Origin: Archangium gephyra | Lineage (GTDB): Bacteria > Myxococcota > Myxococcia > Myxococcales > Myxococcaceae | DNA length: 64,000 bases | Assembly (NCBI RefSeq): GCF_001027285.1 | Contig: NZ_CP011509.1 | Coordinates: 7,588,501 to 7,652,500, forward strand | Direction: 5' to 3' | Shown: positions 6,506 through 22,532 of the stretch, piece by piece | Numbering within the stretch: position 1 is the stretch's first letter | Layout: each line of letters starts with the position of its first letter | Notes under the pieces: generated by a model | The model's database searches: none | Seen by the model: the letters and a program-made list of their open reading frames with translations, nothing else | Told to the model about the DNA's origin: nothing | Program-made: the position numbers and the translations under genes

Positions 6506-7831
6506 CTAACGGCTGGCGAGCAACACTCCCGGGCCTTCCTCGATCCGGATGACCTGGGTAGGTGCACGTGTGCTGCGCAGCGAATCAATCCACTGCACGG
6601 CGGCCGCCACGTCCGCCTCGCGGGTGTCGTGGGTGAAGACGACGATGGTGGCGTGCGAGTCGGCGGGACGCGGGGGGCGCTGGAGCACCGAGTTGATGCT
6701 CACCCCCTTCTCGCCCAGCACGCTGGCGATGCGCCCCAGCACACCGGGCTCGTCGCTGACGGAGAAGCGCAGGTAGACGGGCCCGCGGCGCTCCCCGGAG
6801 GACAGCAGGGGCACGTCGTGCACGTGGGGCGGACACGGCAGCGGCAGCCGCCCGGACACACCGGCCAGGAGGTTGCGGCAGGTGTCGATGATGTCGGACA
6901 CCACCGCGCTGCCCGTGGGCAGGTCTCCCGCCCCCCGGCCCGAGTAGAGCGAGGCCCCCAGGGCGGCGGACTGGAGCAGCACCGCGTTGAAGGCACTGCT
7001 CACGTCCGCCAGGGGGCTGGCGGCGGGGATGAAGGCCGGGTGCACGCGCACGTCCAGGCCCTCGGGGGCCCGGCGCGCCGTGGCGAGCAGCTTGAGCACG
7101 TACCCCGCCTCGCGCCCGTAGGCGATGTCCGTGGGGGTGAGGCTCGTGATCCCCTCCACGAGGATGGACTCGGGGGACACGCGCGCGGAGAAGGCCAGCG
7201 AGGCCAGCAGGCACAGCTTCTGCGCCGCGTCCATGCCGCTCACGTCCAGCGTGGGATCCGCCTCCGCGTAGCCGAGCTCCTGCGCGCGCCGGAGCGCGTC
7301 CGCGTAGCTGGCCCCCTCGTTGGCCATGGCCGAGAGGATGAAGTTGGTGGTGCCGTTGACGATGCCGGTGAGCGACTCCACCCGGTCCGAGGCGAGCGCC
7401 TCGCGCAGCGTGCGGATGATGGGGATGCCACCGCAGACGGCGCCCTCGAAGTGCACGTCCACCCCGCGCGCCAGCGCCTTCGAGTAGAGCGCCTCACCGT
7501 GCGCCGACAGCAGCGCCTTGTTGGCCGTCACCACGTTGCGGCCCGAGGCAATGGCCTGCTCGAGGTACTCGCGCGAGGGGCTCAGCCCGCCCATCAGCTC
7601 CACCACCACGGAGACATCCTTGTCCTCGAGGATCGTCTTCATGTCATGGGTGATGAGCGAGGCGGGCACGTCTTCCGGCCGCGACTTGCCCGCGTTGCGC
7701 ACCAGCACATGGCGCACGCGCACCCGTGCGCCCAGACGGCGCTCGATGTCCTTCGCGTGGTTGGCGAGGATGCGGTACGTGCCCAGTCCCACGTTGCCCA
7801 GTCCCAGCAGGGCGATGCCGATCTCCTTCAT
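6506..7831 (-). CDS. hom: Homoserine dehydrogenase with ACT domain
   Basis: This enzyme reduces aspartate semialdehyde to homoserine with NAD(P)H, the branch point to threonine and methionine. The 441-residue protein begins with a Rossmann motif GLGNVG at residues 10-15. The substrate domain includes AVCGGIPIIRTLRE and NGTTNFIL, both hallmark sequences of the family. A C-terminal ACT domain spans roughly 355-430 (YLRFSVSDEPGVLGRIASVL), suggesting feedback control by threonine. GGGGAGGGAG lies just upstream of the ATG. It sits 22 bases downstream of a lipoprotein gene in a minus-strand run. Confidence 0.95.
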   Translation of the reverse strand: MKEIGIALLGLGNVGLGTYRILANHAKDIERRLGARVRVRHVLVRNAGKSRPEDVPASLITHDMKTILEDKDVSVVVELMGGLSPSREYLEQAIASGRNVVTANKALLSAHGEALYSKALARGVDVHFEGAVCGGIPIIRTLREALASDRVESLTGIVNGTTNFILSAMANEGASYADALRRAQELGYAEADPTLDVSGMDAAQKLCLLASLAFSARVSPESILVEGITSLTPTDIAYGREAGYVLKLLATARRAPEGLDVRVHPAFIPAASPLADVSSAFNAVLLQSAALGASLYSGRGAGDLPTGSAVVSDIIDTCRNLLAGVSGRLPLPCPPHVHDVPLLSSGERRGPVYLRFSVSDEPGVLGRIASVLGEKGVSINSVLQRPPRPADSHATIVVFTHDTREADVAAAVQWIDSLRSTRAPTQVIRIEEGPGVLLASR

Positions 7832-7853
7832 GTGACTCCCTCCCCTGCGTTGT

Positions 7854-8456
7854 TCAGCGGCCCGAGTCCTGGAGCTTGTAGGACGCCAGCTCCAACCATG
7901 TCTGCGGCAGGCGCTCGCCGTTGCTCTTCTCGGCGGACACCTCGATGCGCACCAGGCCCACGCCCTCGGCGAAGGTGAGCGCGTTCACCAGGGTCGTCTC
8001 CCCATCCACGCGGTTGCGCGCCTCCACCCGCACACAGTGCGGGAAGGAGCCCGCGGGCGCCTCGCAGGGCACTCCCGCCTGGAGGATGCGGTAGCGCTCG
8101 GTGGAGGACACGGACACCACGTTGGTCCACTGGTTGCCCTGGGTGAGCGGGCCGCGCAGCAGGTAGCGCTTGCGGTCTCGCACGCCGAAGCCGTCCACGG
8201 ACAGCTGCCCGCCCTGGTTGTCGTGGAAGTACCCGTCCTCCTCCTTGAGCACCTCCACGTCCACCGTCCGATCCGCGCGGCCGTTGACCCGGTACGTCCA
8301 GCGGTTGCCCACGGCCAGCGGGTAGTACGCGGCCAGGGAATCGGAGGGACGGGTCTCCTGCTCGACCACCTGCTGCCGGCTCGAGGAACACGCGCCAGCA
8401 CCCACCACCAGCAGCGAGGCCCCGAGACCCCACCGTACGACAGACGAGAGCTTCAT
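7854..8456 (-). CDS. Hypothetical lipoprotein (200 aa)
   Basis: The signal peptide MKLSSVVRWGLGASLLVVGAGACSSS has a GAGAC lipobox with Cys at about residue 23. The mature part begins with a Ser/Gln/Glu-rich tether, then a domain starting YYPLAVGNRWTYRVNG, a beta-rich pattern found in many secreted bacterial proteins of unknown role. No catalytic residues stand out. It starts five bases after the upstream HEAT lipoprotein gene ends, so the two are surely cotranscribed and may work together at the envelope. Confidence 0.8.
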   Translation of the reverse strand: MKLSSVVRWGLGASLLVVGAGACSSSRQQVVEQETRPSDSLAAYYPLAVGNRWTYRVNGRADRTVDVEVLKEEDGYFHDNQGGQLSVDGFGVRDRKRYLLRGPLTQGNQWTNVVSVSSTERYRILQAGVPCEAPAGSFPHCVRVEARNRVDGETTLVNALTFAEGVGLVRIEVSAEKSNGERLPQTWLELASYKLQDSGR

Positions 8457-8461
8457 AGGTG

Positions 8462-9391
8462 TCAGTGTTCCGCGCGGTCCGAGCCGCGCGCCTCCGGAGC
8501 AGAGAGCTTGCGTGATGCCAGGAGTGTATCCAGTGCCTGCTGGGCCGCGGCCTGCACATCCGGCTGATCGTGCCCTTGTGCCACGGTGAAGAGGTACGCC
8601 TCGGCCTCGGGCCCGCCGATCTCCCCGATGGCGAAGACGACCTCCTGCACGAAGCCGATCTCCCGGTCCTTCACCAGGTCGATGAGCGCGGGCACCGCCT
8701 CCCGCGACTTCATCTCCGCCAGCGCGCCGATGGCCTTGCGCACGGTCTGCGCATCGTCCTCCTCGAGCTGGCGGATGAGCAGCGGCGCCGCCGCGGGGTT
8801 GCGCCGGTCGGCCAGCACGCGCAGCGCGAACTCGCGGATGCGGTCATCCTGGGACTGGAGATCCTGAAGCAGTGCCGCGTCCGGGCGCTCCACCGCCGCC
8901 AGCTGGAGCGCGGCCGCCTGCGTCACCTGGGTGAGCGCGCGGCGCAGGGCCTCGCGCACGGCCTCGCGCCGGGCCTCGGCGTCCTTGCGCTCCACGCGCA
9001 CCTCGCCCAGCCCCACCACCTGGTAGCGCTGATCGTCCTCCTCGCCCCGGCGCTCCATGGACAGGGTGACGCCCACCTCGGCGAAGGAGTACGCACTGCC
9101 GTCCTTGAGCGCCTCACGGGTGAAGGGCAGCTCGAGCGTCAGGGTCCAGGCGCCCTGCGCGCGCTTGTCCCTGGCGCCCTTGTCACCCTCTCCGAGCAGC
9201 TCGAAGCGGCGGCTGTCGCGCAGGGTGCGGGCGAAGAGATCGTGAACGTCCGTCGAGGCCCAACCGAGCAGGCCGTTGTCGACCAGAGTCGCGCCCTGGA
9301 TGGAGAGGCGCGCCACCGGAAAGCTCGGCTCCCGCGAACGGCAGGCGCCGAGCATCAGGGCCATCAAGACGATGAGCAGGCCGGGCTTCAT
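8462..9391 (-). CDS. HEAT-repeat lipoprotein
   Basis: The 309-residue lipoprotein has signal MKPGLLIVLMALMLGACRSRE (lipobox LGAC, Cys near 17). Residues 25-165 form a domain with beta segments and an Ala/Arg-rich helix. From about 175 to 295 there are HEAT-type helical repeats with spaced LQSQDDRIREFALRVLAD, EEDDAQTVRKAIGALAEM and REIGFVQEVVFAIGEI units. HEAT arrays usually bind other proteins. It sits directly upstream of the 200-aa lipoprotein in the same operon. The partner is unknown. Confidence 0.82.
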   Translation of the reverse strand: MKPGLLIVLMALMLGACRSREPSFPVARLSIQGATLVDNGLLGWASTDVHDLFARTLRDSRRFELLGEGDKGARDKRAQGAWTLTLELPFTREALKDGSAYSFAEVGVTLSMERRGEEDDQRYQVVGLGEVRVERKDAEARREAVREALRRALTQVTQAAALQLAAVERPDAALLQDLQSQDDRIREFALRVLADRRNPAAAPLLIRQLEEDDAQTVRKAIGALAEMKSREAVPALIDLVKDREIGFVQEVVFAIGEIGGPEAEAYLFTVAQGHDQPDVQAAAQQALDTLLASRKLSAPEARGSDRAEH

Positions 9392-11780: not shown

Positions 11781-13967
11781 ATGATCCGCTTTCGCGTCGG
11801 ACATCGATGGAAGCGCGAACCCGCGGAGGCGCCGCACGATTCCGTTTCGCTGGAGCTGGACGGGGTCAATCTGCTGCCTGGAGCGGTGGAAGAACCGCTC
11901 GTGGAAGCGGTGCCGGCGCTGGTGGAGGCCGTGGCGGGGCTGCACGCGGGAGGGCGGCGGCTGGCGCAGGTGTCGCTGACGGAGGCGCACCTGGAGCTGG
12001 TGCTGCGACGTTCAGGAACGGACATCGAGCTCCAGGTGGCGAGCCTGTCGCGGCCGGCCCGGCTGCTGCGCCCGCCGCTGAGGCTGGACGCCGAGGAGCT
12101 GGCGGAGGCGGCGCGGGTGGGCGGCCAGGGGTTCCTGGAGGACATCCGGAAGGTGGCCCCCCGGAGGCTGTCGGGGGCCGCCGAGCAGGGGCTCGAGCAG
12201 GCGCTGCGGCAGTTGGAGGAGCCGGTCCACCTCCGGGAGGAGCGGCGCCCCGAGCCCTTCACCCGGCGGGTGGCCCCCCCGGGGGTGCCCGGCTTCGGCT
12301 TCGCGCTGGACGACACGGATGACGTGCTGCGGCGCGCGGCGAGGGAGAAGGGCCCGGCGCTGGCGTCGCTGCTGTGCCCGGGAGAGGTGTGGCTGTCGCT
12401 GCCGGAACGGCCGGTGGCGTGGCGCGCCTCGGGGCCGCCCTTCCTGACGGCGCTGGAGCTGGCGCGGCAGGCGGCGGACCTGGCACGGGCGGTGGAGCTG
12501 GGCGAGCCGCGCTTCGGCCTGGAGCCCGCGGGCGTGCGTCCGGAGCTGACGCTGGACCTGAAGGCGGGCGAGGCGCGGCTGGGCGGGGCCACCTTCCCGC
12601 TGACGGGCGCGGCGCTGGTGGAGGCCATGTACCACCTGGGGCAGGCGCTGGCGGTGGCCATGTCGGAGCGCGAGCGGGCCCTGGCGGGCAACCCCTACCT
12701 GGTGGAGCTGACCGAGCGCTGCCGGGAAGGGCTCTCGCACCTGCGCGGGGCGGTGCAGCCTCCCGAGGAGAGCGGGATGGCGATGGCGCGGACGGCGCTG
12801 TCCACGGCGGCCTCGCGCCCGTTGAAGGTGCCGGGGCGCCTGCGCCGCCTGCGCTTCGATGACTTGTGGGAGCAACGCAAGCTGGCGGACGCGGACCAGG
12901 GGCGGCTGATGCTGGGGCGCCAGGGGCCGGTGTACTCGTCGCCGCAGATGGCGTGCGCCTTCGAGCGCAAGTCGGGCAAGCAGCTCTGGCGGCGGGCGGC
13001 GACGCACGGCGTGGCGGCCTCGACGGACGGCTACAGCCTGGCGGCGAGCGCCGTGCGCGTCTGCGGCTTCCATGGCAAGGGCGCGGGGGCGCGCTGGCTG
13101 CACGACCACGATGGGCTGCGCATCGGCCCGCAGCTGCTGCGGCAGGACGGACTGCTGCTCACCCTGTCGGATGATCGGATCGCCCTGGCCTACAACGAGA
13201 TGACGGGCCGGGAGATGTGGCGCCTGACGCCTCCGCGCACGCGGCGCAGCCACCTGAGCATCCATGCCCACCGGGCCCTGCTGGCGACGGACTCGGGGTA
13301 CCTGTACGGGCTGGACCTGGCGGATGGACAGGTGCGCTTCCGGGTGAGCGCGTCCCTGCCCTTCCTGGGACCCCCGGTGCCCTGGGGCCGGCGCTTCGTG
13401 GCCACCCTGGGACAGGGCTCGCACTTCGCCCTGCTGCTGTCGGACGCGCACACGGGCGAGGCGGCGTGGACGTACGAGATGTCGCTCGCCCTGCCCTCCG
13501 CGCCACTGCCGAGCGGGAAGCGGGTGTACGTGGCCGGGGAGCTGGAAGGCGAAGGCGTGCTGCTGTGCCTGGATGCGAACGGCCAGACGCGGTGGCAACG
13601 AACCCTGCACCTGGGCCCGGGGCCGTTCGCGCTGGCGAGGCTGCCGGGCGGAGTGCTGGTGACGTCGGCGCTGGGCGCGGCCACGCGGGTGAGCGACGAG
13701 GGCGAGGTGGACTGGCGGGTGGGCGCGGCGGGTGAGCAGCTCACCAAGGCGCTGCAGCCCATCATCTCGCGCGGCGTGGTGCTGGTGCCGGGCGAGCGCG
13801 TGCGCGCGGTGGATCCCGACAGCGGCAACGTGCTCGCGGAGGTACGGGCGGGCGCGGGCCTGATGGCGCTCCAGGCCGATGCCCAGCTCAACCTCTACTT
13901 CCTGGACGAGCTCGGGACGATCTCGGCCTACCGGCTCGTCTCGCACTTCGCGGTCGTGAGTAGTTAG
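11781..13967 (+). CDS. PQQ-binding-like beta-propeller protein
   Basis: The 728-residue protein shows no signal peptide. The N-terminal half (to about 350) is Leu/Ala/Glu-rich and unrecognised. The C-terminal half (about 370-728) has repeated blades of PQQ-like propeller type, for example KQLWRRAATHGVAAS, REMWRLTPP, EAAWTYEMSL, TRWQRTLHLG and DWRVGAAG, each with the conserved Trp that closes a blade. No enzymatic motif is seen, so a scaffold or sensor role is more likely than a quinoprotein dehydrogenase. The ATG at 11781 is chosen over an upstream TTG because GGGGA lies close by. It is divergent from the HARE-HTH gene across about 100 AT-richer bases. Confidence 0.8.
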   Translation: MIRFRVGHRWKREPAEAPHDSVSLELDGVNLLPGAVEEPLVEAVPALVEAVAGLHAGGRRLAQVSLTEAHLELVLRRSGTDIELQVASLSRPARLLRPPLRLDAEELAEAARVGGQGFLEDIRKVAPRRLSGAAEQGLEQALRQLEEPVHLREERRPEPFTRRVAPPGVPGFGFALDDTDDVLRRAAREKGPALASLLCPGEVWLSLPERPVAWRASGPPFLTALELARQAADLARAVELGEPRFGLEPAGVRPELTLDLKAGEARLGGATFPLTGAALVEAMYHLGQALAVAMSERERALAGNPYLVELTERCREGLSHLRGAVQPPEESGMAMARTALSTAASRPLKVPGRLRRLRFDDLWEQRKLADADQGRLMLGRQGPVYSSPQMACAFERKSGKQLWRRAATHGVAASTDGYSLAASAVRVCGFHGKGAGARWLHDHDGLRIGPQLLRQDGLLLTLSDDRIALAYNEMTGREMWRLTPPRTRRSHLSIHAHRALLATDSGYLYGLDLADGQVRFRVSASLPFLGPPVPWGRRFVATLGQGSHFALLLSDAHTGEAAWTYEMSLALPSAPLPSGKRVYVAGELEGEGVLLCLDANGQTRWQRTLHLGPGPFALARLPGGVLVTSALGAATRVSDEGEVDWRVGAAGEQLTKALQPIISRGVVLVPGERVRAVDPDSGNVLAEVRAGAGLMALQADAQLNLYFLDELGTISAYRLVSHFAVVSS

Positions 13968-13979
13968 GCTTATGAACAT

Positions 13980-14000
13980 GCGCCACACTTTCAGTGGCGC
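13980..14000 (+). terminator. Hairpin after the propeller gene
   Basis: A perfect 7-bp inverted repeat, GCGCCAC and GTGGCGC with a 7-base loop, begins 13 bases after the propeller stop codon. No T tract follows, so intrinsic termination is uncertain. It could be a Rho-assisted end or an mRNA 3' stabiliser. Confidence 0.4.
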
Positions 14001-14074
14001 GAATGGCCGTCCATGCGCAACCATCCCCGCGAGGCATCCGCTTCGCGGGCCTGGAGCCCGCCTGGAGGCAGGTC

Positions 14075-15133
14075 ATGAGCGTCACCCATGCATGGCGCGA
14101 GCTCGCGGCGCGGCTCGGGGTCGAGCACCCCATCATCCAGGCCCCGATGGCCGGCGTCACGACCCCGGAGCTGGTCGCCGCCGTGTCGAACGCGGGCGGG
14201 CTGGGCTCCATCGGCGCGCCCTACATGAAGCCCGCGGACATCGTTCAGTTCGCGCGGCGGGTGCGTGAGCTCACGGACCGGCCCTATCAGATCAACCTCT
14301 TCGCGCCCCAGCCACCACCCGCCCAGGCGGACCCGGGCCGGATGCTGGCGGAGCTGGCGCGCTACCACCAGGAGCTCGGGCTCGAGCCGCCGAAGCCCCC
14401 CACCTCTCCGTTCCCGCCCTTCGAGGAGCAGGTGGACGCCGTGGTGGAGAGCGGGGCGCCGATCTTCAGCTTCACCCTGGGGATTCCACCGCCCGCGGCA
14501 CTCGAGCGGCTGAGGTCACGAGGCGTGGTGATCCTCGGAACGGCGACGAACGTGCGGGAGGCGAAGCTGCTCGAGGCCGCGGGAGTCGACGCCGTGGTCG
14601 CGCAAGGCAGCGAGGCGGGCGGACACCGGGGGACGTTCGCGGAGCCCTTCGAGGCGGGGATGGTGGGCACCATGGCCCTGGTCCCGCAGGTCGCCGATGC
14701 GGTGCGCCTCCCGGTCATCGCGAGCGGAGGCATCATGGACGGGCGGGGAATCGCCGCCGCGCGTGTGCTCGGGGCGAGCGGCGTGCAGCTGGGCACGGCC
14801 TTCCTCACCTGCCCCGAGTCGGGCGCCACCGCCGCCTACAAGGCCGCGATCCGGGAGGCACGGGATGACTCGACGGTCATCACCCGCGCCTTGTCCGGAC
14901 GCCCGGCCCGAGGCCTCGCCAACACGCTGTCGGAGTCCTTCCGGGAAGAAGGTGCCCTCCTCCCCTTCCCGCTCCAGCACACGGCCACGGGTGCGCTGCG
15001 AAGCGCCGCGGCGGCCCGGGGGGACCCCCGCTTCATGACGCTCTGGTCGGGTCAGGCCGCCGCGCTCTCCCGCGGCCTTCCCGCGGCGGAGCTGGTGCGG
15101 CAGCTCATCGCGGAGTCCGAGCGGCTGGGGTGA
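14075..15133 (+). CDS. Nitronate monooxygenase (2-nitropropane dioxygenase family)
   Basis: This FMN-dependent enzyme oxidises alkyl nitronates, detoxifying compounds such as propionate-3-nitronate. The 352-residue TIM-barrel protein begins MSVTHAWRELAARLG; IIQAPMAGVTTPELVAAVSNAGG (about 19-41) and QGSEAGGHRG (about 180) are family signatures, with the latter holding the catalytic His. ASGGIMDGRGIAAARVLGASGVQLGTAF binds the FMN phosphate. GGAGG about seven bases upstream fixes the start at 14075. Relatives include EnoylACP reductase FabK, but the sequence favours the nitronate branch. No operon partner is evident. Confidence 0.88.
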   Translation: MSVTHAWRELAARLGVEHPIIQAPMAGVTTPELVAAVSNAGGLGSIGAPYMKPADIVQFARRVRELTDRPYQINLFAPQPPPAQADPGRMLAELARYHQELGLEPPKPPTSPFPPFEEQVDAVVESGAPIFSFTLGIPPPAALERLRSRGVVILGTATNVREAKLLEAAGVDAVVAQGSEAGGHRGTFAEPFEAGMVGTMALVPQVADAVRLPVIASGGIMDGRGIAAARVLGASGVQLGTAFLTCPESGATAAYKAAIREARDDSTVITRALSGRPARGLANTLSESFREEGALLPFPLQHTATGALRSAAAARGDPRFMTLWSGQAAALSRGLPAAELVRQLIAESERLG

Positions 15134-15154
15134 CGCGGCGCCGCGCCGTCTGGC

Positions 15155-15736
15155 TCAGGTGCTCTCTCGTACAACTCCCTGCCGGATGAGCTCCTTGGCC
15201 AGGAACGGGAAGTATTTCCGGATGAGGCTGAACGGCATTTCTCCGCTCCGGAATACTTCGTAGTACTCCGTACGGGCCTGGATGAATTCGCCATCATTCA
15301 GGTCCAGAAGCTCAATGGTCTCCTCGACGCGCTGACGCAAATCCGCAGGTAGCCCTTCTGCCGGAATGACCTGGAGCGTGGAGAGCTCAAGCGCGAACCA
15401 ACCATCCTGGACCTCAAACGGATCGAGCACGCTCTCCAGCGCATTCTTGCGTGCATTCATCCGGACACAGGCGAGCCGGTAGTTGGACCACTCGTACGTC
15501 AGGTCGCGGTGCTTCGACTTCGGCAGGAGGTGATCGACTGAGCGCGCGCCCGTCCCGCGCGGGATGTAGAGACTCGAGTAGGCACAGATGCCGCGGTAGG
15601 CGTGCCAGAGTTGTAACGCGCAGTGTTGCCAATGCGGACGCAATTCACCTTCCGGTGAAGGGAGATCGGACTGACCCGGCTGACGGACCTTGGAGTCGAA
15701 GTCCGAAGGCTCGGGCTGGGGCTCGACGTGGATCAC
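15155..15736 (-). CDS. HNH endonuclease-like protein, PtuB-like partner
   Basis: The 193-residue protein carries an HNH (beta-beta-alpha metal) core: CAYSSLYIPRG at 51, SVDHLLPKS at 66-74 with the catalytic-type DH pair, W83 and N85, then LACVRMNARKN at 89-98. This order matches the nuclease partner of AAA ATPases in Septu (PtuB) and retron-associated modules. Two of the four usual zinc-ligand cysteines appear replaced (Ser54 and Met93). Its ATG overlaps the ATPase stop by four bases, so the pair is coupled. It probably cuts DNA or tRNA when the ATPase is triggered, a role inferred from the family. Confidence 0.78.
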   Translation of the reverse strand: MIHVEPQPEPSDFDSKVRQPGQSDLPSPEGELRPHWQHCALQLWHAYRGICAYSSLYIPRGTGARSVDHLLPKSKHRDLTYEWSNYRLACVRMNARKNALESVLDPFEVQDGWFALELSTLQVIPAEGLPADLRQRVEETIELLDLNDGEFIQARTEYYEVFRSGEMPFSLIRKYFPFLAKELIRQGVVREST

Positions 15737-16977
15737 GGCTCGATCCCCGCAGCCTCCGCACGGGCCAGCCAGCGAGGCCAGAAGGGATCCGTATCCTTGA
15801 GCAGCCGGTAGAGCTCGTTGTGGATCTCCCGCACCTTCTCGATGGGCAGCTGCGGGTCCTTGAGGGCGGCCTTGGCGCGGGTGATGGCTTCCTCGGCCTC
15901 CACGGAGCGGGGCTCCTTGAGATCGAAGACCTCCGACGTGAGCCAGGCGTTGGCATCTCCCCGGGGCCGCCAGTCAGCACGCGTGACCTTCACGTCGCCA
16001 CCGACGAGGTCGAACATGAAGAGCGCGTCCTGCTCCGGATCGAAGTGGGGCTCGACGGAGGCCAACAACATTGGGGCGTGAGTGACCGCGAGGATCTGCA
16101 CCTTGACGTCGGGACGCAGCTCACTGGCCACGGACATCAGGGACGGCAGGATGAGCCGCTGCCACCGGGGATGAAGGTGTGCCTCCACTTCGTCCACGAG
16201 CAGCACGAGGGATTTGGATGTCTCCTCCCGAAGAAGCTCGGCGGCTCGTTGGTGTTCCTCCCAGGCCCAGACGAGCAGGTAGGCGAGCCCGACGATCCGT
16301 CTGACCGCGGCGGATGCGTGGGTGAGCGGAATGGTGCCGTAGGGCATCTCCAGCGTGGGGATGTCCCGCACGTCGTCGATACCGATGCGCGTGGGCTCTC
16401 CAGGCGTCAAGGGCTCCTGCTCGTGTGCGGAGAGTACCCGGAGGACACGCCGCAGACGCTCGAAGGGCTCCGACCTCTTGAGCTGCCAGGACACCCAGTC
16501 GCGAATGAGCCCGTTACACACGGCGCGGCCATTCCGCGCCAGACCGTCCCAGAGTTCTTCCCGTGAGAACTCATACTCTGGCAGTGGCGTATGCATGCCG
16601 TGCTGCCAGCGCAGGTCGTTACGGATGGGATCCCACACGGAGAAGCTCCCATCCACACGTGCATAGAGGGTCAGGCCTGGATTGATGGCGAATCCACTCG
16701 AATCAACCAGGTGCGGTGGAATGGTCTGAACAACGGTATGGCGCTTGCCATCGTTCCTGACGATCGATGCCTCGACCCTGGCCCTTCCCGGCCAATCCTT
16801 CCTGGGCAGGGCGGGGAGCGGCTCCCGCTCATGGGCGGTCAGCGCCCACCACGCCAGATCCAGCACGAACGTCTTGCCGAGACCATTGTCCCCGGTCAGC
16901 AGGTTGAGACGCGGGGCGAACGAGAACGACATCCGAGGGCTCGGCCCCACTCCCTCCAGCTTCAGCCCTTCGAGCAT
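15733..16977 (-). CDS. AAA/SMC-like ATPase, PtuA-like
   Basis: The 414-residue ATPase has Walker A GDNGLGKT at 29-36, a long insert, Walker B LVLLVDEVEAHLHP at 257-270 and a switch His in LAVTH (300). The EAHLHP sequence and the domain order are those of OLD/RecF-like AAA_21 ATPases found with nucleases in bacterial defence. In Septu systems the ATPase assembles with the HNH partner and responds to phage. It starts 114 bases upstream of the neighbouring minus gene's stop, so the pair forms its own two-gene operon. It has no reverse transcriptase or ncRNA beside it, so a retron is not supported. Confidence 0.82.
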   Translation of the reverse strand: MLEGLKLEGVGPSPRMSFSFAPRLNLLTGDNGLGKTFVLDLAWWALTAHEREPLPALPRKDWPGRARVEASIVRNDGKRHTVVQTIPPHLVDSSGFAINPGLTLYARVDGSFSVWDPIRNDLRWQHGMHTPLPEYEFSREELWDGLARNGRAVCNGLIRDWVSWQLKRSEPFERLRRVLRVLSAHEQEPLTPGEPTRIGIDDVRDIPTLEMPYGTIPLTHASAAVRRIVGLAYLLVWAWEEHQRAAELLREETSKSLVLLVDEVEAHLHPRWQRLILPSLMSVASELRPDVKVQILAVTHAPMLLASVEPHFDPEQDALFMFDLVGGDVKVTRADWRPRGDANAWLTSEVFDLKEPRSVEAEEAITRAKAALKDPQLPIEKVREIHNELYRLLKDTDPFWPRWLARAEAAGIEP

Positions 16978-17038
16978 GCCGCGTCCTCCTCACGCGAGGA
17001 GTAGCACCGTAGCGCGCTGAATCAAGGACAGAGGCGGC

Positions 17039-17071
17039 GGGTGGCACCCCGAACAGGCCGCGGTGCCACCC
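17039..17071 (-). terminator. Inverted repeat downstream of the 301-aa gene
   Basis: A perfect 10-bp inverted repeat, GGGTGGCACC and GGTGCCACCC, separated by 13 bases, begins 20 bases after the stop of the minus-strand gene at 17092 and lies just upstream of the ATPase gene. No T run follows. It may end the first transcript or insulate the ATPase-HNH operon. Confidence 0.45.
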
Positions 17072-17091
17072 GCGCGAGCGTCCCGGCCGGG

Positions 17092-17997
17092 CTACTTCTT
17101 CTGCGCCTTGGACGGATCGATCTCGTCCTCGGCCCGCTCGGTGACCTCGGCGCCCTCCCACTGCTCACCCGCGCCCAGCCGCCAATCGGAGGGCACGTCC
17201 AGCTTCCACACGTAGGTGGCCGTGACATCGCCGCCCGACACCGCGCGCGAGCTCACGTTGAAGGTGATCTCCATCTTCTTCACCTCGCTGGGCACCAGAT
17301 CCATGTCGTAGTGGCCCAGCACCATCTGCGGCGGGAACTCGGCGATGAAGCGCTCGGGATAGTCGACCTTCATCGACGGATCGTCGCCCGTCATCTCGCC
17401 GATGAGCTTCCCCCGCTCGTCGGTGAGCTTCCACTGGGTCTTGAACGCGGCGCTGGTGACCATCTTCTTCACCTTGCCGTCCGTGCGCTCCTCGCGGTGC
17501 GCGCCCCAGAGCGCCAGCTGCAGCCGCACCTGCGGCTTGTTGAGCACCTTCACCACGTCCGAGCTCACCACGTCCAGGCGCATGCCCTTGTCCGTGGCCG
17601 TCCACTCCGGCTTGTAACGGCCCTCGCGCATCTGATCGAACACCTTGCGCGTGTACTCGTAGTAGGCCTTGCGATCCGCCGCGCGGTCCTCCTTCTCGCC
17701 GCGCTTCTCGAGCTCCACCAGGTACGCGTCGAAGTCCTTGCTCAGCTTGAAGCGGCTCTGGTGCTCGCCAATCTGCTCGAAGTACGTCTTGAAGAAGGGC
17801 GCGAGCTCCTGCCGGTAGGAGGCCTCGTCCGGGTTGGTGCGCATCCAGCCCACGCGCTCCAGGTACGCACTCTGGATACGGGTGAACTCCGCCTCACGCT
17901 GGGCCGCGAGCGCCTTGGCACTCGAGGCGCGGTACGTCATCACCCCGCCAATGAGGATGCCGGCGATGATGACGATGACTCCGAAATAACGCTTCAC
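17092..17997 (-). CDS. Membrane-anchored hypothetical protein (301 aa)
   Basis: A GTG start at 17997 is preferred because AGGAG lies nine bases upstream. The product begins VKRYFGVIVIIAGILIGGVMTYRASS, a single N-terminal membrane anchor. The remaining region is charged and probably exported to the periplasm: a helical stretch (about 25-125) rich in Glu/Lys/Arg is followed by beta segments including RLQLALWGAHRE and VTATYVWKLDVPSDWRLG. It ends in a Lys-rich tail. I do not recognise the family. It is divergent from the MetX-like gene, whose predicted start lies 59 bases away. Confidence 0.72.
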   Translation of the reverse strand: MKRYFGVIVIIAGILIGGVMTYRASSAKALAAQREAEFTRIQSAYLERVGWMRTNPDEASYRQELAPFFKTYFEQIGEHQSRFKLSKDFDAYLVELEKRGEKEDRAADRKAYYEYTRKVFDQMREGRYKPEWTATDKGMRLDVVSSDVVKVLNKPQVRLQLALWGAHREERTDGKVKKMVTSAAFKTQWKLTDERGKLIGEMTGDDPSMKVDYPERFIAEFPPQMVLGHYDMDLVPSEVKKMEITFNVSSRAVSGGDVTATYVWKLDVPSDWRLGAGEQWEGAEVTERAEDEIDPSKAQKK

Positions 17998-18055
17998 GCG
18001 GAGATGCTCCTGTCTCTGGGAAATGACGGCCGTAGTGATATGAGACCTGCCTCGC

Positions 18056-19054
18056 GTGTACCAGACCACCGGCAGCGTGGCGTTACCGGTTGCACTTCCT
18101 CTAGAGGAGGGCGGCCTGCTGGGCGGGGCCCAGCTCGCCTGGTCCGCCTACGGTGAGCGCTCCGACGACAATGTTGCCGTGCTGCTGCACGATCTCCCGC
18201 ACTCGCACCGGGCGCTGGGGCCCGTGGAGCAGGCGGCCTTCCAGCCCTCGGGCTGGGGCACGGAGCTCGTCGGCGAGGGGCGGCCCCTGGACACCTCCAC
18301 GCTCCACGTGGTGGTGCCCAACCTGCTCGGCAGCCCCTTTGGCTCGACATCGCCGGTGACGGTGGACGCGCGGGCGGGCCTGCCCTACGGCGCGGCGCTG
18401 CCCACGGTGACGGTGACGGACATGGCGCGCGCGGTGGCGGCCATGCTCCGCGGCATGAAGGTGCGGCACGTGCGGGCGCTGGTGGGCGTGGGGCTCGGAG
18501 GGCTGGTGGCGCTGCGGCTCGCGGCGCTCTTCCCGGAGCTGCCGGCGGCGGTGGTGGTGCTGGGCGCCGCGCGCACCCTGCCCGAGGCCCAACGCGAGCG
18601 GCTCGGCCTCGCGCGCCACCTGCTGCGGTTGGATCCCGACTTCCACGAGGGCCAGTACACGCCGGGCCACGGGCCCAAGCGGACGCTGCGCAAGCAGTAC
18701 CTGGAGTACCTGCGGCTGGTGCACGGGCCCGCCGAGCCGGCGCTGGAGGCCGAGGCGGATGCCTTCGCGGAGGGCTTCGACGCGAACACGTGGGCGCTGC
18801 TGTGCACGGCCTACGCGGGAGGAGATGTCACCGACAGCCTGGCGCAGGTGCGGGCGCCGGTGCTGCTGGTGGCGGCGGCGGAGGACGCGCTGGCTCCTCC
18901 GTCCCGGGTGCGCGACACGTACCACCTGCTCAGCGCGGCGGGTGTGCGGGCGCACTACCACGAGCTGCCCGCGCCGAGCGCGCACGCGAGCCTGCTCACC
19001 CAGGTCCGGCGGCTGCACGGGCCGATGCGGGACTTCCTGCGCCGCCGCAGCTGA
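18056..19054 (+). CDS. MetX-like alpha/beta-hydrolase fold protein lacking the nucleophile Ser
   Basis: The 332-residue protein has the layout of homoserine O-acetyltransferases: AWSAYGERSDDNVAVLLHDL at the start, VVVPNLLGSPFGSTSP, then the nucleophile elbow, and the C-terminal Asp (ALAPPSR context, about 283) and His (PSAHAS, about 312). In active MetX the elbow reads G-x-S-x-G-G. Here it reads GVGLGG at 144-149, with Gly in place of Ser. The fold is convincing, but normal acyl transfer is unlikely. The start is a GTG without a clear ribosome site. It converges with udk, four bases apart. Confidence 0.75.
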   Translation: MYQTTGSVALPVALPLEEGGLLGGAQLAWSAYGERSDDNVAVLLHDLPHSHRALGPVEQAAFQPSGWGTELVGEGRPLDTSTLHVVVPNLLGSPFGSTSPVTVDARAGLPYGAALPTVTVTDMARAVAAMLRGMKVRHVRALVGVGLGGLVALRLAALFPELPAAVVVLGAARTLPEAQRERLGLARHLLRLDPDFHEGQYTPGHGPKRTLRKQYLEYLRLVHGPAEPALEAEADAFAEGFDANTWALLCTAYAGGDVTDSLAQVRAPVLLVAAAEDALAPPSRVRDTYHLLSAAGVRAHYHELPAPSAHASLLTQVRRLHGPMRDFLRRRS

Positions 19055-19931: not shown

Positions 19932-20867
19932 ATGCAAACCGGTGTCTTCGCCGGAGGTGTCCGTCGACTGGGGCTCGTGGTGCTGCTGCTGGCCGCGAGT
20001 GGCTGTGAACCGCTGGAAACGGCTCCCGAGCCGCTCGCCCGGCGGACCCACGCGGTCAAGGACCTGAACACCGGCAATGGCCTGTCGCTCAACGGCCTGT
20101 CCCTCAATGGGCTGTCGCTCAACGGGCTGTCGCTCAACGGGCTGTCCCTCCAGGGACTGGCCACCGCCGAGTTCGACGCCTGGTTCCAGCTGGACCCGGA
20201 GCTGCACGACGCGGTGATGAAGTACCTGGTCGGCTGCGCCGTCCCGTCCGGGGAGAGCCGCACCTATACGTCTCCCACCACGGGCAGGAGCTGGAGCTGG
20301 ACGGGGGCCCTGGGGCTCGCGCCGGACTGGAGCAACGGCAGGCCCGCCACGCTGGCCGAGCAACGCATCATCTCCGCCTGCCTCGCCGCCCACGTGGACA
20401 AGTACGAGCTCCACATCTCCATCTCCGTGCAGGGCCTGAGCGCCACGGGCGTGGCCATCCCCACCCCGGACTGGGAGCTGCTGCTCTACTCGGAGAAGGA
20501 GGCCTGCTTCTTCGGCAACCTCTTCAACGCCGAGGGCATCTACGCCGGCAACGACGGGCGCCCGCTCACCGACAGGGAGAGCACCGCGCGCACCTGCGCC
20601 CTCTCCTGCAGGAGGGACTTGAACACCCAGCCCTGCGCCCCCCTGCTGCGCGTCGAGCAGGACTGCGCGAGGTTCTGCACCCTGGATGCCGCGCGGCGCT
20701 TCTACGTGTCCTGCTCCTACAACGGCATCAGCTACCCGGCCATCACCACGCGGATGCTCCGCTCGGACATCTACATGTGCGGGGATGGTGTCTGTCAGGT
20801 GACCGAGAAGTGCGGCACGGGCGAGTCGTTCGACAACTGCGGCAGGGACTGCGGCCCCTGCCCTTGA
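19932..20867 (+). CDS. Repeat-bearing lipoprotein with Cys-rich C-terminus
   Basis: The 311-residue lipoprotein has signal MQTGVFAGGVRRLGLVVLLL ending in an ASGC lipobox (Cys25). Just after it come five 15-base repeats encoding NGLSL-type pentapeptides (about residues 49-73), a hallmark of a myxobacterial lipoprotein group. A central domain follows, with eight or more Cys between 100 and 275. The C-terminus reads CGDGVCQVTEKC then DNCGRDCGPCP, a compact Cys-rich module. The protein is presumably disulfide-bonded on the cell surface. It converges with the MNIO gene, only 15 bases away. Its function is unknown. Confidence 0.8.
   Translation: MQTGVFAGGVRRLGLVVLLLAASGCEPLETAPEPLARRTHAVKDLNTGNGLSLNGLSLNGLSLNGLSLNGLSLQGLATAEFDAWFQLDPELHDAVMKYLVGCAVPSGESRTYTSPTTGRSWSWTGALGLAPDWSNGRPATLAEQRIISACLAAHVDKYELHISISVQGLSATGVAIPTPDWELLLYSEKEACFFGNLFNAEGIYAGNDGRPLTDRESTARTCALSCRRDLNTQPCAPLLRVEQDCARFCTLDAARRFYVSCSYNGISYPAITTRMLRSDIYMCGDGVCQVTEKCGTGESFDNCGRDCGPCP
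20076..20150 (+). repeat. Five tandem 15-bp repeats (NGLSL)
   Basis: Five consecutive 15-base units of the form AAYGGSCTGTCSCTC encode NGLSL. They differ only at silent third positions, which indicates selection for the peptide after duplication. They sit between the lipid anchor and the globular domain and may act as a tether or a beta-helical rung. Confidence 0.85.
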
Positions 20868-20882: not shown

Positions 20883-22532
20883 TCAGCCCCGGCGCAACAC
20901 CCCCAGGGCCCTGCCCTCCGTCAGCACCGCGGCGGGAAGCTCCTCCACCGCCCGGGGCGCCTGCACGAGCGAGCACAGCACCTGCAACAGCGAGGGCGGC
21001 ACCGGGAGCACCTCCAGTCCCCTGCCCCTGCGCCGCACGACGAAGGTCCATGGGCCCGGAGCCGGACGCCGGGCCACCTGCGCGAGCGACTCGAGGCCAC
21101 TCACGTCCAGCACCTCGCACGCCCACGCCCGCCCCGTGAGGTGGCGGCGCAGCGACTTCGCGGCGAAGACGAGCTCCGTGAGGTCCACCGGGAAGGAGCC
21201 CACGCGCACGTCCTCGGCGAGCCCCACCTGTCCCGGGCCGGGCGCCGGCGCGGGCCGCGTCATGAAGGCGTTGGGCAGGAACGTCTCGAAGGTGACCGCC
21301 GCCGCGGCGCCCTCGTCCGGACGCTCGCGCAGCTGGCGCCGCGCCCAGGACGCGAAGGCATGTCCCGGCGAGCGGCCCAGGCCCTCGAAGAGCTCGCGGA
21401 ACTCCTTGGAGGCGGTGAAGGCACGCAGCCCCTCGCGCGTGCCCGCGAGCAGCAGCCGCGACACCGGCCAGTCCCGATCGAGCGTCTCCGCCACCACCGC
21501 GAGCCGGAAGTCCGTCTCCGCCCGGGCCCCCTCTATGTCGCTCCCCGTCTCCGCCTTCACGCCGTAGCCGATGTCATAGAGGGACCACGGCTCGCTCTCG
21601 CGGGTGAGGGCCGGCGCGGGCTCCTTCACCGGCGTGAGCGTGAGCGGAGGCCTCGGCGGGGCGGCGGGCACCAGCTTGCGCAGGCGGCGCAGCGTGAGGG
21701 CGGCCACCTCGGACGGGTGTCCGTCTCCCTCGAAGGTGACGGCGCGCAGCGAGGGGCAGCGCGGCAACAGCGACTCCAGCAGGCCGAAGAGCTCCTCGCG
21801 CACGGGCTGGGTGTGGTCATCCACGTAGTAGCCCCGCCCGTTGCGCCGCGTGATGACACCACCGGCGAGGTGGAGCTCGATCACCTTGTCCAACGGGAAG
21901 CCGTCGAGCCCCGCCTCCAGGGGCAGCCCGGCGGCGAGCTGGTAGCTGAGCAGGTGTCCCAGATCGATCAGCAGCGGCAGGCCGGTGCGCGCGTGCACGC
22001 GGGCCAGGAAGTCCAGCACGTGCAGCTCGCCGCGCTTCGCGAAGGCGGCGGGGTTCTCCAGCGCGAGCGGCACGGACAGGTGCGACTGGACGTGGAGCGC
22101 ATGGGCCACGCTGTCGCGGACACCGGCCTCGGTGAAGGGAGGGGTGAAGTAGAGGTAGCCCGGGAAGGGCTGCCCGCCCGCGTGCCACCAGCCGATGTCG
22201 TTGCCCACCCAGGCGCTGCCCACGGCGCGCGCGTGCGCGTCCAGGTCCGCGAGTGCCTTCACCGGCTCCAGCTCGGGGCCGTAGAGGTTGAGGTGCACGG
22301 GGTGGAAGAGCACGGGCACCTCGCCGCGGCGCTCCCACATCTCGGGGAAGAGCGAGGCGTGCCGCCGCGTCTCGTCGAGCGACAGGGGGGCGCTGTACTC
22401 GACGTAGTCGAAGAGACCGGGCGACTCGGCGAGCAACCGGTAGGGGTGCGGCTGGTCCGCCGCGTCGAGGTTGCTGCTCAGGCCCAGCCCGCGCCAGGGG
22501 AGCTGCCAGGCAGCCGCTTCAGGGTGGCTCAT
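20883..22532 (-). CDS. MNIO (DUF692) oxidase fused to a C-terminal partner domain
   Basis: The 549-residue protein has an N-terminal TIM-barrel of the multinuclear non-heme iron oxidase family (about 10-285). Likely metal and active-site segments are VLFHPVHLNLYG, VGNDIGWWHAG, LALENPAAF, LLIDLGHLLSY, IELHLAGG, VDDHTQPV and VTFEGDGHPSE. MNIO enzymes such as MbnB and TglH modify Cys or other residues of ribosomal peptides, usually helped by a separate partner protein. Here a region of about 230 residues (about 320-549) with no homology I can name is fused on and may be that partner. No obvious precursor gene is adjacent; a Cys-tailed lipoprotein faces it. Confidence 0.82.
   Translation of the reverse strand: MSHPEAAAWQLPWRGLGLSSNLDAADQPHPYRLLAESPGLFDYVEYSAPLSLDETRRHASLFPEMWERRGEVPVLFHPVHLNLYGPELEPVKALADLDAHARAVGSAWVGNDIGWWHAGGQPFPGYLYFTPPFTEAGVRDSVAHALHVQSHLSVPLALENPAAFAKRGELHVLDFLARVHARTGLPLLIDLGHLLSYQLAAGLPLEAGLDGFPLDKVIELHLAGGVITRRNGRGYYVDDHTQPVREELFGLLESLLPRCPSLRAVTFEGDGHPSEVAALTLRRLRKLVPAAPPRPPLTLTPVKEPAPALTRESEPWSLYDIGYGVKAETGSDIEGARAETDFRLAVVAETLDRDWPVSRLLLAGTREGLRAFTASKEFRELFEGLGRSPGHAFASWARRQLRERPDEGAAAAVTFETFLPNAFMTRPAPAPGPGQVGLAEDVRVGSFPVDLTELVFAAKSLRRHLTGRAWACEVLDVSGLESLAQVARRPAPGPWTFVVRRRGRGLEVLPVPPSLLQVLCSLVQAPRAVEELPAAVLTEGRALGVLRRG

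Follow-up and report, generated by a model that had tools for sequence, protein, structure and literature searches.

Organization of the ptuA-ptuB locus

The window, that is, the whole stretch of 64,000 nucleotides of Archangium gephyra DNA that was analysed, carries on its minus strand two overlapping genes encoding an ABC/SMC-type ATPase, PtuA, and a predicted HNH nuclease, PtuB (Table 1). Both open reading frames lie where the initial annotation had placed an ATPase and its partner. The start codon of ptuA is an ATG preceded by GGAGGA, and that of ptuB is a GTG. In the 4-base overlap, ptuA ends with CCG-TGA and ptuB begins with GTG; the junction thus reads GTGA, and not ATGA as first reported. 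This arrangement suggests that translation of the two genes may be coupled.

PtuA has a Walker A motif, GDNGLGKT (residues 29-36, including K35), a Walker B motif that reads, with its downstream residues, LLVDEVEAHLHP and holds D262, E263, H267 and H269, and a switch histidine, H300. In PtuB, the histidine and asparagine of the HNH core are H69 and N85. The features previously noted, namely Walker A with K35, Walker B, the switch histidine and the HNH histidine, are all recovered in the translations. In addition, K35, D262, E263, H267, H269 and H300 are invariant in an alignment of 18 PtuA sequences, as are H69, N85, N94 and K97 in an alignment of 19 PtuB sequences.

Table 1 Features of the ptuA-ptuB locus (positions in the window)
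Feature	Position	Strand	Evidence
Accessory insert of ~1.94 kb with the pair	15149..17090		Empty-site alignment against the relative G004; single copy in the genome
ptuB, HNH nuclease (predicted), 193 aa	15155..15736	-	PADLOC PDLC00348, structure match, alignment of 19 relatives
GTGA overlap of ptuA stop and ptuB start	15733..15736	-	Sequence
ptuA, ABC/SMC-type ATPase, 414 aa	15733..16977	-	PADLOC PDLC00307, structure match, invariant catalytic residues
Inverted repeat GGGTGGCACC...GGTGCCACCC between the 325-aa gene and ptuA	17038..17068	-	Read from sequence

The pair is flanked by genes for a nitronate monooxygenase and a 325-aa protein, and its description as an orphan among housekeeping genes is right as far as location goes. 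In the relative G004, these flanking genes (94% and 89% protein identity, respectively) are only about 34 bases apart. Since they adjoin there, the ~1.94 kb found between them in A. gephyra is an accessory insert; gain here and loss in G004 are both compatible with the data. Archangium lansinium, which has the nearest named copy, in keeping with the myxobacterial host first proposed, carries the pair at the equivalent site. The pair is absent from this site in G002, G003 and G005, two of which (G002 and G005) have it elsewhere.

The base composition of the pair is foreign, with GC3 values of 0.81 for ptuA and 0.74 for ptuB versus 0.91-0.93 for the neighbours. Both genes are under purifying selection, dN/dS against the A. 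lansinium copy being 0.16 for ptuA and 0.19 for ptuB. The inverted repeat upstream of ptuA is possibly a terminator of the 325-aa gene, albeit a weak one with no T run; a terminator scan did not flag it, and no promoter or terminator pattern was found by the scan at the locus.

We also looked for a defence island in the window. The other genes scanned matched PADLOC only as IetA, TRIP13, PDC-S02 and HEAT, which look like general families (one such match is an FtsH-type AAA/M41 protease), and the idea was rejected. Elsewhere in the window, a tandem NGLSLNG-repeat protein with a Cys-rich end is encoded convergently to an enzyme of the MbnB/TglH/ChrH family (19932-20867 and 20883-22532); A. lansinium and G003 each have two copies of the repeat protein.

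Both proteins belong to the Septu family

PtuA matches the PADLOC PtuA model PDLC00307 over residues 1-412 (E = 9.2e-168), and PtuB matches the PADLOC PtuB model PDLC00348 over residues 1-191 (E = 8.7e-72). From these E values and the dN/dS ratios, the pair is real, far above chance. With two full-length matches encoded by adjacent genes, the likeness to Septu (PtuAB) is stronger than the initial annotation had stated, and similarity to defence ATPase and HNH families, whose absence would have spoken against it, is established by the same two models. We observed no notable difference from the Septu type I systems that these models describe, and the branch is already catalogued, as both genes are recognized by PADLOC.

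Pfam assigns only AAA_21/AAA_15 to the ATPase, and HNH to the partner below threshold. The NCBIfam models for retron-type PtuA, retron-type PtuB and TIGR02646 match below their cut-offs, PtuB scoring 32.8 bits against TIGR02646 (cut-off 52.15) and 33.5 bits against NF041761, the retron-type PtuB model (cut-off 150). Of the profile matches initially suggested as a check, those to PtuA and PtuB were obtained with PADLOC, whereas that to TIGR02646 stayed below its cut-off.

Predicted structures and comparison with studied systems

AlphaFold models of PtuA and PtuB have mean pLDDT values of 82.6 and 82.1, respectively. The PtuA model superimposes on solved PtuA chains with Z scores of 20-22 (best 22.4, rmsd 3.6, 287 aligned residues), Rad50 being next with a Z score of 18. 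The PtuB model gives Z scores of 12-15 with solved PtuB chains (best 14.7, rmsd 3.2, 173 aligned), as compared to about 4 for other HNH domains (next unrelated fold 4.2). Among solved structures, E. coli Septu PtuAB and the retron Ec78 proteins rank first for both proteins. In alignments with solved PtuB, H69 and N85 are matched to its His and Asn. Identity to the studied PtuA and PtuB in the structure alignments is just ~15-22%. A C-terminal motif of PtuA, D-x-FW-x-x-W (residues 397-403), is conserved and lies outside the structure alignments.

E. coli Septu PtuAB (PDB 8ee4, 8eea, 8sux) shares with the present pair the folds, the aligned HNH His and Asn and the two-gene form. However, its proteins are longer (465 and 243 aa versus 414 and 193 aa here), and identity is ~16-20%. 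The PtuAB effectors of retrons Ec78/Eco7 and Ec83 (9nnb, 9vh1, 9e8z) also have the folds and the HNH core in common with it, but these retrons carry an extra reverse transcriptase and msDNA, and retron PtuA has an N-terminal extension of ~60 residues that is missing from PtuA of A. gephyra. In the E. coli Septu EcB88, defence requires K43 or D316 of the Walker motifs and H75 or N91 of the HNH motif (PMC13096335). The counterparts of the essential Walker A Lys, Walker B Asp and HNH His and Asn are K35, D262, H69 and N85, and the two HNH residues have the same 16-residue spacing in both proteins.

Distribution and genomic context of the branch

Among 193 genomes of the phylum, the branch is patchily distributed, with 37 PtuA genes in 29 genomes. 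Pairing is obligate: PtuB is encoded immediately downstream of PtuA in all 37 cases, and the single full-length PtuB lacking a PtuA sits at a contig end. Outside the phylum, relatives were found in one Desulfovibrio and one Spartobacteria MAG. Plasmid-borne relatives occur in Azotobacter, Allocoleopsis and Azospirillum; an Aeromonas relative lies on a 4.9 Mb record listed as a plasmid but probably chromosomal. None was found in the phage collection searched.

Most relatives lie among unrelated ordinary genes, with no clear defence island, and their neighbours, which vary by locus, include transporters, a TonB receptor, a WD40 protein and a SLOG protein. The possibility that Septu here has a third gene was considered and rejected, as the neighbours have in common just inherited local synteny. 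The PADLOC defence candidate PDC-M17 occurs close to a related pair at two myxobacterial loci. There, PDC-M17A/B (L047:6046-8306 and L048:10875-14210) are on opposite sides of PtuAB in the two species, and L047 also has a partial MkoA-like match.

Two damaged copies were observed. In G027 (L045:6867-10321), a DDE transposase gene (7788-9161) lies within a related ptuA and splits it. G004, the species with the empty site, has a degenerate copy of the same branch (G004:C75:38136-39588), in which the ptuA match is truncated and ptuB is in two pieces. The A. gephyra genome contains a second Septu pair (G000:C1, ~6623.0-6625.0 kb; L052:8012-10017), which belongs to another branch (PDLC00278 / PDLC00315).

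Alternative explanations

The pair could be a domesticated housekeeping module, in which a RecF/Rad50-like ATPase and a nuclease would serve cellular DNA repair or RNA turnover. RecF and Rad50 are indeed among the weaker matches, the majority of copies sit amid ordinary genes, and selection on the pair is purifying. The patchy occurrence, the empty site in the sister species, the foreign composition, the plasmid-borne relatives and the existence of one transposon-broken and one degenerate copy argue against it, and we consider it improbable. Since decayed copies of the branch are known in G027 and on contig 75 of G004, the pair could also be an inactive Septu remnant. Here, however, the frames are intact, all invariant residues are kept and both dN/dS values are below 0.2, which makes decay highly unlikely.

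Two further readings concern related systems. Retrons Ec78 and Ec83 employ the same two proteins and the genome has six reverse-transcriptase domains, as would suit a type I-A retron effector whose reverse transcriptase and ncRNA are encoded elsewhere. Yet the nearest of these domains (an RVT_1 match) is more than 2.1 Mb from the pair, in agreement with the earlier statement that no reverse transcriptase is close by; none was seen among the relatives' neighbours examined, and no Rfam family matched above cut-off in 13900-18200, a search that covers Rfam families alone. Moreover, stand-alone Septu requires no reverse transcriptase. Septu type II and retron type I-A were accordingly rejected, there being neither an adjacent reverse transcriptase nor an Rfam RNA nearby, and a retron with distant components seems extremely improbable. 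The missing reverse transcriptase and ncRNA had been taken as the sign of a variant system, which is not supported. Lack of a reverse transcriptase is in fact the rule, since merely ~7.6% of Septu systems have one according to the PADLOC authors (PMC8565338), and the two-gene form is ordinary Septu type I. Finally, the ATPase also matches AriA (1.5e-19) and GajA (1e-12), as it might in another ATPase-nuclease system such as PARIS (AriAB), Gabija (GajAB) or OLD. These matches are ~150 orders of magnitude weaker than that to PtuA, the partner is an HNH protein with a PtuB fold, and a TOPRIM domain is matched in neither protein. The three systems were rejected on these grounds, and the chance that the pair belongs to one of them is negligible. 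Overall, the pair is very probably a genuine, intact and ordinary stand-alone Septu type I, with a defence role assigned by analogy.

Possible mode of action and implications

How such a stand-alone Septu could act is suggested by its studied relatives, from which the complex, the restraint of the nuclease, its target and the defence role are all taken. In E. coli, PtuA oligomerizes and associates with PtuB at a ratio of 6:2 (PMC12948488). By analogy, an oligomer of the A. gephyra ATPase would bind PtuB and, in a healthy cell, hold its HNH nuclease idle. Phage infection would alter the state of the complex, via nucleotide level or a DNA or RNA signal. PtuB, once freed, might then cut nucleic acid, either phage DNA or host tRNA, and phage growth would stop. 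The E. coli ATCC 25922 Septu is reported to target DNA, whereas for retron Eco7 and for Septu EcB88 the target is tRNA-Tyr (PMC11555353, PMC13096335). We found no phage test of this branch. The branch is far in sequence from every studied Septu, and it is conceivable, if rather unlikely, that it responds to a distinct trigger or acts on a distinct target (such as a different tRNA or a different DNA structure), read out by the C-terminal PtuA residues 397-403.

Taken alone, the locus is routine, as PADLOC's models already detect both of its genes. It contributes a clean and compact Septu pair for which a sister species offers an empty-site control, and its genome holds another Septu of a different branch. 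The PtuAB systems studied so far differ as to what they cut, phage DNA in one case and host tRNA-Tyr in others, and a distant branch would help to tell which of the two is ancestral.
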